The notes under the pieces: model-generated
Databases searched by the model: none
Seen by the model: the letters and a program-made list of their open reading frames with translations, nothing else
What the model was told of the DNA's origin: nothing
Assembly: GCF_016863275.1 (NCBI RefSeq)
Contig: NZ_BOOO01000038.1
Span: 62,001 to 126,000 of the forward strand
Length of the DNA stretch: 64,000 nucleotides
Direction: 5' to 3'
DNA from: Planotetraspora mira
Lineage (GTDB): Bacteria > Actinomycetota > Actinomycetes > Streptosporangiales > Streptosporangiaceae
Translations under genes and position numbers: made by a program
Shown: positions 25,724-59,306 of the stretch, in pieces
Position numbering within the stretch: the first letter of the stretch is position 1
How the letters are laid out: every line of letters begins with the position of its first letter

Positions 25724-26593
25724 TTGCCCCACCGACGGGCTCCACGGCACACCCGGCCAGACGAAGGTCTGGATCTCAACAGACCGGGTGTGCGCATCGG
25801 CCTAGGCGCCGCGGTCACCGTGGTGATGACCGGTGCGCTCTTCGCCGCCTACAACGGGATCGGCACGCCGCTGCTGGATGCGGCACAGACCTTTCTCACC
25901 TACTACGCGGGCGTCATCTCCCTGGTCGCCCTCACCACGACCGTCGCGCTCGGGCTCGCCGCCAGCGACCGCGTGGTGTTGCCGATCCCCCAGCGCGTCC
26001 GCGCCCAGCTCGTGCACCGGGCCGCCGCCCTGGTCGGCGTCGGCTTCCTGGTCACCCACATCGGCATGAAGATCGCCGCTGGGCTCGTTCCCGCGTACGG
26101 CTCGGTCGTGCCCACCACCTCGCTGTACGTGGGCATGGGCGCCCTGGCGTCCGACCTGATGATCGTCATCGTCGCGACGGGCGTGATGCGCGGCCGGTTC
26201 GCCCAGGCCGAGCGTCCCTGGACGTGGCGCGTCCTGCACGACCTCGCCTACCTGGCGTGGCCGCTGTCCATCCTCCACGGGCTCATGGCCGGCCGGACCC
26301 CCGCCGCCTGGGTGAGCTGGAGCTACGTGCTCTGCCTCGTCGCCGTCGGGTCGGCCCTGCTGATCCGGGTCATGGCCACCTTCCGGCCCGCCTTCGAGGC
26401 CGGCGTGGTCGACGCCGTCGACATGACGCAGACGCAGCCGATGCCGCGTGCCGTACCCAAGTCGTCCCCGGAGAGGACTCCGCAGACGATGCCGGAGCCG
26501 GTTCCCCTGCTCGGCCGCACCGGAACGGACGCGACGCCCATCGGACGGGCGGCGCGCAGATCACAGGACACCAAACTCCGGAGGATCGTGTGA
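25724..26593 (+). CDS. Ferric-reductase-like membrane cytochrome b protein
   Basis: 289 residues with about six membrane helices between 25 and 220. Two bis-His pairs sit within or between helices: HRAAALVGVGFLVTH (14 residues apart) and HDLAYLAWPLSILH (13 apart), the spacing of heme b ligands in the ferric reductase/NADPH-oxidase-type membrane domain. A cytoplasmic Pro-rich tail (about 225-289) has no cofactor motif. It would carry electrons across the membrane, receiving them from the overlapping flavoprotein gene. TTG start with GGAGGAA 3 nt upstream. The stop overlaps the next start by 4 nt (GTGA), indicating translational coupling. Confidence 0.82.
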   Translation: MPHRRAPRHTRPDEGLDLNRPGVRIGLGAAVTVVMTGALFAAYNGIGTPLLDAAQTFLTYYAGVISLVALTTTVALGLAASDRVVLPIPQRVRAQLVHRAAALVGVGFLVTHIGMKIAAGLVPAYGSVVPTTSLYVGMGALASDLMIVIVATGVMRGRFAQAERPWTWRVLHDLAYLAWPLSILHGLMAGRTPAAWVSWSYVLCLVAVGSALLIRVMATFRPAFEAGVVDAVDMTQTQPMPRAVPKSSPERTPQTMPEPVPLLGRTGTDATPIGRAARRSQDTKLRRIV

Positions 26594-28056
26594 TTCCCTA
26601 TCGCGTGTCCCAGATCAGGCGGCTCGGCCCCGCGCGGCTCACGGCCGGGCTCGACCAGCACCGCAGACTCGACCTCGACGCCCATCGCTCCATCCACGGC
26701 GAGCTCGGCACCGAGTCCGTCGACACGCTCATCTCGATGGCGGAGGACGTCGACCTGCGGGGGCGCGGCGGCGCGGCCTTCCCGTTCGCGCGCAAGCTGC
26801 GCGCGGTCGCCGCGCGGGCCCGCGACTCCGAGACCGTCGTCCTGGTCAACGGCGCCGAGGGCGAGCCCGCCAGTGTGAAGGACAAGATGCTGCTCACCCG
26901 GGCGCCTCACCTCGTCCTCGAGGGCGCACTGCTGGCGGCCGGCGCGCTCAACGCGCGGCAGGTCGTGGTCGCGGTGGCCTCGGGCGACATGGCGGAGGCC
27001 TCCATGACGGCCGCCGTCGCCGAGCGGGGCGCCGAGGACTCCGTCCGCGTCGCCGCCATCCCGGAGCGGTTCATCTCGGGCGAGGGCGGCGCCCTGGTCA
27101 AGGCCGTGAACGGTCAGGCGGGCATCCCGCCGGGGCGCAAGGCCCGCTCCTCCGACAGCGGCGTGGACGGCCTGCCGACGCTGCTGTCCAACACCGAGAC
27201 CTTCGCCCAGCTCGCCGTCCTCGGGGAACTGGGCGCGGAGGTGTACGGCTCGGTGGGAACCGTACAGGAACCGGGGACCACCCTCCTGACCGTCGGCGGC
27301 TCGGCCGTCTTCCCGGCCGTCGTCGAGGTCACGCCGGGCGTGCCGCTGGCCTCCGTGCTCGACCTGTGCGAGGCGGCCGTCGGCGACGGCGTTCTGGTCG
27401 GCGGGTACCACGGGGCCTGGTTGTCGGCCGCCCAGGCCTACGGGGCGGTCGTGTCCCGCCGCGGCATCTCGCAGGCCGGTGGATCTCTGGGCGCGGGAAT
27501 CGTGGTGCCGCTCGGCGGCGAGACCTGTCCCCTCGGGGAGGTGCTGCGGGTCGCCAACTACCTGGCCGCGCAGTCGTCGGGTCAGTGCGGGCCCTGCCGG
27601 CTCGGCCTGCCCGACCTGGCCCGCGCCATGGCCGAACTGTCGGGCGGTTCGTCGCACGGCATCGAGCTCGTACGGCGGGCCGCGTCAGCCGTACGAGGCC
27701 GGGGGGCGTGCTTCCACCCCGACGGCTCGGCCCGGTTCGTCATGTCGGCGCTCGAGGCGTTCGCCGACGACGTGGAGGAGCACCGGATCCACGGGACCTG
27801 TGGGCGGCCGGTGCTCGAGATGCTGCCTCTGCCGGCCTCCGAATCTCTCGAGGCCAAGTTGGTGGTCGACTGGACCCGCTGCCAGGCCCATGGGCTCTGC
27901 GCGCACGTCGCCCCCGAGCTGGTCAAGCTCGACCAGCACGGCTTCCCTGCCGTCGAGGAGGGCGGCGTCCCCCCGTGGCTGCGTGCCGAAGCCCGCCGAG
28001 CCGTGGAGATGTGCCCCGCCCTAGCCCTCCGCTTCCCCAACGCCCCTCCGGCGTGA
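26590..28056 (+). CDS. NuoF-like flavoprotein fused to a ferredoxin domain
   Basis: 488 residues. The first 300 resemble the complex I 51-kDa subunit: FMN/NADH loop RGRGGAAFPFARKLRAV, NGAEGEPASVKDKMLL, and an SLBB-like segment (EVTPGVPLASVL). An Fe-S region follows, SSGQCGPCRLG plus a later Cys in GACFHPDG; the first Cys of the NuoF CxxCxxC is Ser. The C terminus (about 420-485) is a small ferredoxin with C-x5-C (RCQAHGLCAHVAPELV) and a distal MCP, the three-Cys pattern of 3Fe-4S ferredoxins. It probably oxidises NAD(P)H in the cytoplasm and reduces the membrane cytochrome encoded upstream. GTG start overlaps the upstream stop. Its own TGA stop lies within the first 53-bp repeat motif. Confidence 0.85.
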   Translation: MIPYRVSQIRRLGPARLTAGLDQHRRLDLDAHRSIHGELGTESVDTLISMAEDVDLRGRGGAAFPFARKLRAVAARARDSETVVLVNGAEGEPASVKDKMLLTRAPHLVLEGALLAAGALNARQVVVAVASGDMAEASMTAAVAERGAEDSVRVAAIPERFISGEGGALVKAVNGQAGIPPGRKARSSDSGVDGLPTLLSNTETFAQLAVLGELGAEVYGSVGTVQEPGTTLLTVGGSAVFPAVVEVTPGVPLASVLDLCEAAVGDGVLVGGYHGAWLSAAQAYGAVVSRRGISQAGGSLGAGIVVPLGGETCPLGEVLRVANYLAAQSSGQCGPCRLGLPDLARAMAELSGGSSHGIELVRRAASAVRGRGACFHPDGSARFVMSALEAFADDVEEHRIHGTCGRPVLEMLPLPASESLEAKLVVDWTRCQAHGLCAHVAPELVKLDQHGFPAVEEGGVPPWLRAEARRAVEMCPALALRFPNAPPA

Positions 28057-28406
28057 TCATGCACACATTCGTGAAATGCCCCGCCCACCTGCGCCGCTTC
28101 CAGCCGTGATCATGCACAGATTCGGAGAATGCCCCTTCCACCTGCGGATTCACTTTTCGTGATCATGCACAGGTTCGGCGCGACCGCCGACGACCTGTGC
28201 TTTTCTGCTGCGTGATCATGCACACTCGGGGCTACCACATGATCACGAAAGGCGTTTCCCCAGCTCGTACGGCACGCACCCGAATCCGTGCATGATCACG
28301 AAAACAGTCCGCACAGCTCAAGGGCCCTGATCCCGAACCTGTGCATGATCACGAAAAGGATTTGGGCAGGCCAGGAGGCCTGATCACGAACCTGTGCATG
28401 ATCACG
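28052..28406. repeat. Dyad-symmetric array of 53-bp units with a conserved 20-bp motif
   Basis: Eight copies of a motif with consensus CGTGATCATGCACAGGTTCG. Four point forward, starting at 28052, 28105, 28158 and 28211. Four are inverted, ending at 28247, 28300, 28353 and 28406. Every step is exactly 53 bp, and each forward copy has its mirror partner about position 28229. The two copies nearest the axis are partial. The 33-bp interval diverges but keeps (A/G)(C/G)CTG at interval positions 16-20 and often ends in TTTT. It fills the whole space between two convergent genes. Possible roles are a phased protein-binding site, a bidirectional terminator hairpin or a structured RNA; none is proven. 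Confidence 0.9.
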
Positions 28407-28420
28407 CGGGGGCTGCAGGA

Positions 28421-30349
28421 TCACGCGGGGGGCACGGGGGGGTGGAAGTGGCGGAGGACCTCTGGGTTGGCCATGGCGTCGGGGTTGGCGGCCTGCTCGA
28501 CGGGTGTGCCGAGGAGGATCTTCCGTACCGGGATCTCCAGCTTCTTGCCGGACAACGTCCGGGGGATGCCGGGGACCTCATGGATCTCGTCGGGCACGTG
28601 CCGCGGGGACAGCTCGCTTCGCAGCGCCCCCTTGAGCCGGCTCACGAGATCGTCGGAGAACGTGCCGCCCACCGCCAGCGTGACGTAAAGCAGGAGGCGG
28701 CCCTCCTGTCCGAGCCGTCCGGTGTCGATCACCAGGCTGTCGGCGATCTCCTCGAACCGCTCGACGACCCGGTAGAACTCGCTGGTGCCCATCCGGACTC
28801 CACCCCGGTTGAGGGTCGAGTCGGACCGCCCGTAGATCACGCAACTCCCATCGGAGTTGAGCTTGATCCAGTCGCCGTGCCGCCAGACTCCGGGGTAGTC
28901 GGCGAAATAGGACTCGCGGTAGCGGACACCGGACGGGTCGTTCCAGAACATGACCGGCATCGACGGCATGGGCTGCGTCACCACGAGTTCGCCCACCTCG
29001 CCGACCACGGACACGCCGGACGGGTCGAACGACTCCACCATCGCGCCGAGACACCGGCACGGGATGACCCCCGCCCTGACCGGAAGCGACGGCACCCCGC
29101 CCACGAACCCCGTGCAGACGTCCGTGCCCCCGGAGAACGACCCGAGCTGCACATCGGCCTTGACGTCGGAGTAGACCCACGCGAAGCCCTCCGGCGGCAG
29201 CGGCGATCCGGTCGAGCCGATCCCCCGCAGCCGTGAAAGGCCCGTGGGCCTCAGCCCCGCCTTCATCGAGGCGACGATGTACGGCGCGCCCGTGCCGAAG
29301 TAGGTGACCCCCTCCTCGTCCGCCACCCTCCACAGGGCGTCGGGCCCGGGATGGGCCGCGCTGCCGTCGTAGAGGACGACGGTGGCGCCCACGAGAAGGC
29401 CGCCGATGAGGTAGTTCCACATCATCCAGCCGGTCGTGGTGTACCAGAAGAACACATCCCCGTCGCCGAGGTCCTGGTGGAAGGAGAGCGACTTCAGGTG
29501 TTCGAGCACGATTCCGCCGTGCCCGTGCACGATGGGCTTGGGCAGGCCGGTCGTGCCCGAGGAGTACAGCACCCACAGCGGGTGCCCGAACGGGACCGGC
29601 TCGAACACGAGCTCGCCGGCCTCGTCGTGGAGGTCGTTCCAGCTCAGGCCGCCTTCAGACGCGGGGGCATCGGTGTCCAGGTAGGGGATCCACACGGTCG
29701 CCGCGAGGGTGGGCAGCTTGGCCGCGATCTCGCGGACGACGCCCGAGCGGTCGAAGGCCTTGCCGCCGTACCGGTATCCGTCGACCGCGATGAGCACCTT
29801 GGGCTCGATCTGGGTGAACCGGTCGATGACGCTCGGCGCGCCGAAGTCCGGCGAGCACGAGGACCAGACGGCCCCGAGCGAGGCGGTGGCCAGGAAGGCG
29901 ATCAGCGCCTCGGGGATGTTGGGGACGTACGCCGCCACCCGGTCGCCACGCCCCACCCCGAGCCGGACCAGACCGGCGCGCACCCGGCCGACCTCTTCGC
30001 GCAACTGCCCGAGCGTGTACGTCTGCCGATTCCCCGCTTCATCGCGAAAAATCACAGCAAGGTGGTCGGAGTCGCCACGCAACGCGTTGGCGGCGTAATT
30101 GATCGTGGCTCCGGTGAACCATCGGACGTCCGGCATCGTCCCACTGATGACGGGCCCGTCACCACGCTCCCCCACGACGCCGAAGTAGTCCCACACCGAC
30201 GTCCAGAAGTCGGCCGGATGGTCGACCGACCACTGCCAGACGTCGTCGTACGTCCCGGACCGCCCGAGCCAGTCCGCGTAGCGGGTCACCCGAGCGTCGC
30301 GGACGATCTCCGGCGTCGGTTCCCAGAGCAGAGCGCCTTCCTCAACCAT
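28421..30349 (-). CDS. acsA: Acetoacetate-CoA ligase (acetoacetyl-CoA synthetase)
   Basis: 642 residues, normal for the family. It has an ANL adenylation fold: N-terminal MPDVRWFTGATINYAANAL (acetyl/acetoacetyl-CoA synthetase cap), nucleotide loop YSSGTTGLPKPIVHGHGG, WYTTTGWMMWNYL, YGRSDSTLNRGGVRMGTSEF (A8 hinge) and the C-terminal lysine region GIPRTLSGKKLEIPV. FFWYTTTGWMMW and GSTGSPLPPEGF are typical of acetoacetyl-CoA rather than acetyl-CoA synthetases. It activates acetoacetate with ATP and CoA in the cytoplasm. ATG 30349 follows AGGA at 7 nt. The stop codon lies in a partial copy (CGTGATC) of the repeat motif. Confidence 0.93.
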   Translation of the reverse strand: MVEEGALLWEPTPEIVRDARVTRYADWLGRSGTYDDVWQWSVDHPADFWTSVWDYFGVVGERGDGPVISGTMPDVRWFTGATINYAANALRGDSDHLAVIFRDEAGNRQTYTLGQLREEVGRVRAGLVRLGVGRGDRVAAYVPNIPEALIAFLATASLGAVWSSCSPDFGAPSVIDRFTQIEPKVLIAVDGYRYGGKAFDRSGVVREIAAKLPTLAATVWIPYLDTDAPASEGGLSWNDLHDEAGELVFEPVPFGHPLWVLYSSGTTGLPKPIVHGHGGIVLEHLKSLSFHQDLGDGDVFFWYTTTGWMMWNYLIGGLLVGATVVLYDGSAAHPGPDALWRVADEEGVTYFGTGAPYIVASMKAGLRPTGLSRLRGIGSTGSPLPPEGFAWVYSDVKADVQLGSFSGGTDVCTGFVGGVPSLPVRAGVIPCRCLGAMVESFDPSGVSVVGEVGELVVTQPMPSMPVMFWNDPSGVRYRESYFADYPGVWRHGDWIKLNSDGSCVIYGRSDSTLNRGGVRMGTSEFYRVVERFEEIADSLVIDTGRLGQEGRLLLYVTLAVGGTFSDDLVSRLKGALRSELSPRHVPDEIHEVPGIPRTLSGKKLEIPVRKILLGTPVEQAANPDAMANPEVLRHFHPPVPPA

Positions 30350-59185: not shown

Positions 59186-59306
59186 CGTGATCATGCACAG
59201 GTTCGTGGACAGGCCGGCTGACCTGGCATTACTCCGGGCGTGATCATGCGCAAGTTCGCGATCAAGTGGGCTGACCTGGGAAGATGGAGTTCGTGATCAT
59301 GCACTG
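59186..59306 (+). repeat. Three further 53-bp-period copies of the 20-bp motif
   Basis: Copies start at 59186 (CGTGATCATGCACAGGTTCG, identical to the array 1 consensus), 59239 (CGTGATCATGCGCAAGTTCG) and 59292 (truncated after the first 13 bases). The period is exactly 53 bp, and both complete intervals contain ACCTG at positions 16-20 inside GGCTGACCTGG. All three point the same way. They separate moxR from the DUF58 gene, breaking the otherwise overlapping gene chain. Confidence 0.88.

Follow-up and report, generated by a model that had tools for sequence, protein, structure and literature searches.

The window, a 64,000-nucleotide stretch of the Planotetraspora mira genome, contains two convergent genes whose shared intergenic region is filled by a mirror-symmetric array of a short motif, and a second, one-armed array of the same family about 31 kb further on. 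The features, with gene starts as given by a home-made gene finder, are as follows.

26590..28056, + strand: upstream gene, NuoF-like (Complex1_51K, NADH_4Fe-4S), with a C-terminal 4Fe-4S ferredoxin domain
28052..28406, both arms: whole mirror array, three full units plus a half-core per arm, centre 28229
28052..28071, + strand: outermost forward motif CGTGATCATGCACACATTCG, which contains the stop TGA of the upstream gene (28054-28056)
28085..28091, + strand: second conserved block, CCACCTG (consensus YGACCWG), unit positions 34-40
28105..28124, + strand: forward motif 2
28138..28144, + strand: second conserved block, unit 2
28158..28177, + strand: forward motif 3
28191..28197, + strand: second conserved block, unit 3 (CGACCTG)
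28211..28247, both arms: 37-bp centre, half-core CGTGATCATG ... CATGATCACG
28261..28267, - strand: second conserved block, inverted unit 3
28281..28300, - strand: inverted motif 3 (one mismatch)
28314..28320, - strand: second conserved block, inverted unit 2
28334..28353, - strand: inverted motif 2
28367..28373, - strand: second conserved block, inverted unit 1
28387..28406, - strand: outermost inverted motif
28416..28425, - strand: extra degenerate core CGTGATCCTG, not in 53-bp phase, containing the acsA stop (28421-28423)
28421..30349, - strand: convergent gene acsA, acyl/acetoacetyl-CoA synthetase-like (AMP-binding, ACAS_N)
59186..59301, + strand: second array, one-armed, three cores, sense

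The geometry given in a preliminary description of this DNA is exact. Forward motifs start at 28052, 28105, 28158 and 28211 and inverted motifs end at 28247, 28300, 28353 and 28406, all in steps of 53 bp and centred on 28229. The motif had been called nearly invariant in its six outer copies; CGTGATCATGCACANNTTCG is exact in five of them and carries one mismatch in the sixth, and the inner two copies are half-cores. Both flanking stop codons do lie inside CGTGATC sequences, at 28054-28056 (TGA, left) and 28421-28423 (acsA). A search against Rfam gave no match above the gathering score, and its single sub-threshold match falls outside the array. The array at 59186-59301 occupies a codirectional gap behind a plus-strand gene, and the orthologous gap of a second Planotetraspora species (G001) has cores too.

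The motif is abundant in the genome of origin (G000; 9.03 Mb in 100 contigs), where CGTGATCATGCACANNTTCG has 202 + 198 exact copies against none for the reversed control pattern, a number far beyond chance. A survey of 1.228 Mb (C1, the greater part of C2, part of C4 and the C38 stretch that includes the window) located 40 arrays, which extrapolates to roughly 300 per genome. In this 1.23 Mb every one of the 173 copies with no more than one mismatch stands in a 52-54-bp phase with another core, and isolated or out-of-phase copies number 0 of 173. The fixed phase proposed from the window thus holds across the surveyed DNA, and the random spacing that would have spoken for simple duplication was not found. 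When 0.4 Mb of P. kaengkrachanensis (G003) is included, 233 of 273 same-strand core steps are exactly 53 bp; 21 of the other 40 measure 18 bp (10 steps) or 35 bp (11 steps), where a sub-core splits the unit. In some Planotetraspora units a second CGTGATCA sub-core is seen at unit position 19, 18 bp past the first, giving steps of 18 + 35. A mirror array in a convergent gap, the form first described, is correct for this locus and is not the only form: 18 of the 40 arrays are one-armed (22 are two-armed), and many are codirectional.

Each 53-bp unit comprises a core, CGTGATCWTGY, a lineage-specific tail usually ending in TCG, and a GACCWG block. The consensus of 199 units from the genome of origin begins with an almost invariant CGTGATCATGC, followed by R-C-R, two variable bases, TTCG and a loose stretch; its 3′ part has YGACCWG at positions 34-40 and a weak ACnC at 46-49. 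A short conserved stretch had been noticed at interval positions 16-20, and it is real: over the same 199 units, positions 36-40 read A (.87), C (.85), C (.94), T (.72) or A (.25), and G (.99). An arm consists of an outside cap, CCCCttnGG, mostly two to four 53-bp units (three to five cores) and a half-core at the inner end. In a wider set of arrays, in which some loci are duplicated (contig 1 of P. kaengkrachanensis enters twice, as tiles and as loci) and chain steps are restricted to 52-54 bp, arms with 2, 3, 4, 5 and 6 cores number 16, 84, 94, 52 and 2. The commonest centre length among the 78 two-armed arrays of this set (73 distinct ones once duplicates are removed) is 37 bp (16/78), and 24 of the 78 centres measure 37 + 53k bp (37, 90, 143 or 196). 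The outermost copies are the most exact, the exact-motif fraction falling from outside to inside as.58,.45,.29 and.21. The cap is equally frequent at stop-facing edges (59% of 86, counting only edges at least 12 bp from the stop and leaving out 47 nearer ones) and start-facing edges (59% of 58), and is found at 23% of 615 inner cores; its equality at the two kinds of edge marks it as part of a DNA element and not of a transcript 3′ end.

Placement relative to genes was scored with the home-made gene calls, using well-supported neighbours only (33 of the 40 arrays) and gaps of at least 150 bp. Arrays adjoin stop codons and avoid divergent promoters. In the genome of origin they occupy 10 of the 19 convergent gaps, 20 of the 97 codirectional ones and 2 of the 63 divergent ones (2/63 against 30/116 for the other gaps, p=7e-5). 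Array edges that face a stop codon lie a median of 13 bp from it, and of 42 such edges 12 have a core that includes the stop TGA. Divergent gaps carry an array in 0 of 33 cases in P. kaengkrachanensis, 1 of 15 in G001 (p=0.12), 0 of 14 in G105, a genome of another genus, and 0 of 7 in loci of the genus g69, loci that were chosen for their arrays. The gene calls may be wrong at the three divergent-gap arrays (two in the genome of origin, one in G001). Positive supercoils meet in convergent gaps, and the preference for such gaps, together with phased arrays at the DNA level, is compatible with a topological or nucleoid anchor, such as a loading site for gyrase or condensin, that serves supercoil relief or domain structure rather than termination. 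By itself such an anchor leaves unexplained the 13-bp median distance to the stop and the exchange with hairpins described below, and the evolution of dialects would be odd for gyrase; this explanation is considered improbable.

The preliminary description had offered, as an alternative to DNA-bound protein, that the transcript of either strand folds into one long hairpin. Folded as RNA, the array in the window is far more stable than its shuffles (-200.8 kcal/mol, z -12.65), and some single units also fold better than shuffled sequence (z -1.0 to -3.9). Several g69 and g80 arrays have perfect 26-bp palindromes at their centres, and one locus, in G117, is down to a single inverted pair. All of this would suit an RNA-level element in which the array transcript or single units fold to terminate, protect or process the 3′ end. 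Identity between mirror-partner intervals is reached by none of 1000 permutations, and the excess is confined to 15 of 203 partner pairs with an identity of at least 0.7 (13 of 494 among non-partners), which suggests occasional in-register copying between arms. In those 15 pairs, for example at G000 C2:273070 and at L092, the intervals of the two arms are almost the same in register (0.73-0.97), a pattern that copying across the palindrome by quasi-palindrome template switching could produce. With the near-identical pairs set aside, the remaining partner intervals show no excess complementarity (0.445 against 0.438 for non-partners). Within units the 25 strongest column couplings are all at most five columns apart, and because they are so local no RNA structure is proposed for the units. 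Arms read in antisense are as intact as those read in sense (38 and 45 arms in codirectional gaps, mean mismatches 0.72 and 0.77, p=0.74), and 18 of the 40 arrays have one arm only, which also counts against a folded transcript. The RNA-level explanation also gives no reason for an identical tail change at about 500 sites (see below). One long transcript hairpin is accordingly disfavoured, and an RNA-level element appears quite unlikely.

The arrays are inherited in place. Both flanks of 13 C1 arrays from the genome of origin were found in C1 of P. kaengkrachanensis, and for 12 of these the orthologous gap also holds an array. Across 44 full units aligned between the two species, identity is 97.5% in the core, 80% in the block at 34-40 and 58-59% elsewhere in the interval, a contrast that bears out the suggestion of selection on the motif; the intervals, whose equal conservation would have favoured a recent tandem duplication, are far less conserved than the core. 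They are still homologous, with an interval identity of 62.8% against 44.4% for shuffled partners. Gap-free alignment failed for 13 of 57 units in this comparison and for 3 of 18 in that with G001, so that at some array positions the units do not correspond one to one. Phasing, constraint and the unit consensus together uphold the view that the array is not a simple recent tandem duplication.

A selfish interspersed repeat of the MITE or REP type, spreading in trans and tolerated only between genes, would account for the high copy number and for an outermost motif that is kept better than the inside, like a terminal inverted repeat and as in MITEs. It would also suit g69, where presence is patchy and 12 of 25 elements, paired by hand among the matches listed, measure 237-239 bp (the G243 array at the rel locus is 238 bp long). 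Target-site duplications are not in excess, however: a flanking repeat of at least 3 bp occurs at 4 of the 73 distinct two-armed arrays, against 5.5 in the shuffled control. Also contrary to a selfish repeat are the lack of isolated copies in 1.23 Mb, the orthology of the C1 arrays, the presence of arrays at the rel locus in four genera, and tails that changed where they stood. REP/BIME elements of Enterobacteria and Pseudomonas have many extragenic copies, grouped in both orientations, and favour gene 3′ ends over divergent promoters. The arrays resemble them in being extragenic, in numbering hundreds of copies, in combining both orientations in one element and in avoiding divergent promoters; they differ in that a REP is a short stem-loop and the array unit a phased 53-bp direct repeat with in-place dialect change. 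Membership of the REP/RAYT class was rejected, since the Y1 transposase of RAYT type (PF01797) is missing in G000, G002, G003, G004, G105, G115 and G120, seven of the 13 array genomes, and present in the other six. A selfish origin is thus regarded as unlikely.

The strict motif was found in five of 60 genomes, and these are the five of Planotetraspora (5/5), so that the element is not confined to one strain, as it might have been had it arisen by a recent local duplication. In a species collection that leaves out the genome of origin, the 80 stretches listed, out of 92, belong to P. silvatica, P. kaengkrachanensis, P. phitsanulokensis and P. thailandica; G001 is probably P. thailandica, whose locus L095 carries the GAAG tail. 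The pattern CGTGATC-N-ACCWG-N-CGTGATC, which by its fixed core misses arrays with other cores, matched 32 of 341 genomes of the Streptosporangiaceae, 19 of them with one match each. Many copies are present in all five Planotetraspora genomes (84-387), in G105 (160; the only genome examined of its genus), in both g80 genomes (21 and 102) and in 5 of 15 g69 genomes (8-109). A class-wide draw of 296 genomes gave four that match: the genome of origin, G111 and 2 of 268 outside the family, the latter with one match each. Related arrays with other dialects exist in three further genera of the family. The tail is CANNTTCG in the Planotetraspora dialect and GAAGTTCG in that of G001; the G105 dialect is CANNTTCCCG, that of g80 AGAAACTCGCA and variants, and that of g69 has TAGTTTGTCGCA outermost with looser inner tails. 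One Planotetraspora genome, G002, is much poorer in arrays, with 157 core pairs compared with 600-757. In two species of a further genus, g70 (L292 in G126 and L293 in G128), one similar unit each, CGTGATC[T/A]TGTG...GCTGACCTG...CGTGATC, is found at apparently the same gene end, perhaps a relic of the array family.

The change of dialect in G001 is genome-wide. CGTGATCATGCAGAAGTTCG has 244 + 261 copies there against 0-1 in each of the other four species, and only 4 CANN-tail copies stand against these 505 GAAG-tail sites. The GAAG-tail copies in G000, G002 and G004 are ordinary array units. Behind acsA the arrays of G000, G004, G003 and G001 align, with tails altered in G001; G002 has no array behind acsA, only TGATCACG at the stop. 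At four orthologous arrays of G000 and G001, comparing full units only, 15 of 18 units align gap-free. Their cores are 98% identical, and position 13 is changed in all 15 (to G in 14). Interval identity is 41.8% when partners are shuffled and 54.5% in the true pairs, a level that none of 5000 shuffles attained; some single unit pairs go down to 36%. At these four arrays the tails were rewritten where they stood; in-place change at the remaining G001 sites is an extrapolation. Insertion of new copies fails as a cause of such change, and a word that differs throughout one genome, rewritten in place at the arrays compared, points to a trans-acting protein reader. Such a change would resemble the way in which the words of transcription factors or recombination hotspots co-evolve with their readers.

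A further explanation for hundreds of copies of a conserved core with genus- or species-level dialects that change in place is an uptake or exchange-recognition word kept by molecular drive, as in Neisseria. Inverted pairs of the DNA uptake sequence (DUS) at gene ends act as terminators, and the DUS also occurs singly within genes. The array motif shares with it a conserved word with lineage dialects and differs in having no copy outside a phased array in the 1.23 Mb examined (0/173). Phasing, the GACCWG block and the cap have no role in an uptake model, which is very improbable here. Dialects of the DUS in different lineages of the Neisseriaceae are treated in PMC3630211.

Between species, arrays and terminator-like hairpins are exchanged at two loci. 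The convergent rel/DUF349 locus was compared in 30 chosen genomes of 12 genera, scoring inverted repeats within the first 300 nt. Array cores lie in the gap in all 13 genomes of array-bearing species (including G000, cut by a contig end after 87 bp with one core, G002, where the array is decayed, and G003, where the neighbour gene was not found), and CGTGATC in none of the 17 others; the arrays at this locus span four genera. A stem score of at least 26 is reached in 15 of the 17 array-less and 3 of the 13 array genomes (Fisher p=0.0005, only indicative because the threshold was set afterwards and the genomes are related). Among the 15, the G116 stem consists of one motif-like pair; strong stems are missing from G016 and G034, and of the three strong stems in array genomes two come from the array centre and one (G242) lies beside the array. 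The G116 gap (L300) holds GTGACCTTGTAGAAC..GTTCTGCAAGATCAC, a single motif-like hairpin in a species without arrays, a possible intermediate or relic.

A second locus, the 3′ end of an acyl-CoA dehydrogenase gene, was compared in 15 g69 genomes, of which the G113 and G122 sequences end there. Full arrays are present in G120 and G111, where the best stems behind the stop score 16.5 and 11. Seven genomes have no core and stems of 35-52 (G112, G114, G115, G118, G119, G121 and G123), and in G110, G116 and G124 the array is missing too, with stems that score 19.5-20. G115 and G121 have arrays at other loci, so that the exchange differs from one locus to the next as well. Behind the G117 stop (L261) there is a single inverted outer-motif pair with a 14-nt loop and a stem of 49, which looks like an array collapsed into a natural hairpin. 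Hairpins occur at only some of the acsA 3′ ends of other genera, a comparison left out of the evidence since the neighbours there may not be orthologous.

At these two conserved loci arrays stand where relatives often have terminator-like hairpins, and between convergent genes they take the position at the common 3′ end that terminators of known type otherwise have. Within the genome of origin, a stem score of at least 24 is found at 3 of 23 (13%) array-bearing convergent ends against 38% of 141 others, and at 0 of 23 array-bearing codirectional ends against 21% of 289. Array-bearing ends also fold less strongly (MFE p=1.6e-6 for convergent and 0.002 for codirectional ends), a low hairpin content that is partly by construction, since the 70-nt windows hold array sequence. 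Like the intrinsic hairpin terminators of actinobacteria, the arrays lie directly behind stops and the two are swapped between species at two loci; in contrast to them, a strong hairpin occurs in only 3 of 46 array ends, and the array sites are orientation-independent and phased. The exchange of hairpin for array does not by itself prove termination by the array.

A comparison with other known repeats sets the arrays apart. The mycobacterial MIRU of the 53-bp type are intergenic tandem repeats, unmirrored, with recently duplicated units. The arrays are likewise actinobacterial, intergenic and tandem at 53 bp, and are distinguished from MIRU here on the basis of those traits. CRISPR shares short repeats at regular, unlike intervals; the arrays differ in their mirror arms and in forming hundreds of arrays of few cores. 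CRISPR was rejected because the intervals share the GACCWG consensus and are homologous at orthologous loci, and are thus not acquired, unrelated spacers. The REP/RAYT, uptake-sequence, CRISPR, MITE and intrinsic-terminator classes each fail in at least one tested feature. In the open-access papers covered, at the level of titles and abstract openings, no description of the motif or element was found.

The reading that best joins these observations is a dispersed, chromosomally inherited, phased binding array that would act as a bidirectional roadblock terminator or insulator, which we hold to be slightly more probable than its negation. Each unit is most probably a binding site for a sequence-specific DNA-binding factor. 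Fifty-three base pairs fit five turns of B-DNA at 10.6 bp, so that successive copies would lie on one face of the helix and a phased complex could form. Placed behind stop codons, such a complex would most probably block RNA polymerase arriving from either side. The anatomy, phasing, placement, exchange with hairpins, inheritance in place and deviating G001 tail are observed, whereas the factor, its binding and the termination are inferred. The fuller proposal, that a dedicated factor assembles at hundreds of gene ends into filaments that are helically phased and often mirrored, terminates or insulates in both directions, and has a dialect that co-evolves with sites re-optimised in place, is put forward tentatively, with a probability somewhat short of even. 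Reb1/TTF-I and LacI are protein roadblocks to RNA polymerase, and the proposed mode, a DNA-bound protein stopping the polymerase, would be of their kind. Termination of this type has been reviewed (PMC10310618), and in the portions of the literature covered nothing comparable was found to helically phased, multi-site arrays placed at native gene ends in their hundreds. Counted against the proposed role is the viability of the array-poor G002, and against a strict rule of array for hairpin that 2 of the 17 array-less genomes at the rel locus have no strong hairpin, that G110, G116 and G124 have neither at the dehydrogenase locus and that G242 has both.

If the roadblock reading is true, protein-bound DNA arrays have taken the place of hairpin terminators at many genes in part of a bacterial family. 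The species that differ at the same gene ends would provide natural swap pairs for direct tests of termination by a DNA-bound roadblock, and G001 a natural experiment in which a reader and about 500 genomic words changed together. The arrays might also be of use as compact bidirectional insulators. Even under another mechanism, a genome-wide change of tail and a strict 53-bp phasing demand explanation. Should the proposed role hold, the arrays would represent a kind of bacterial gene-boundary system that has not yet been described.
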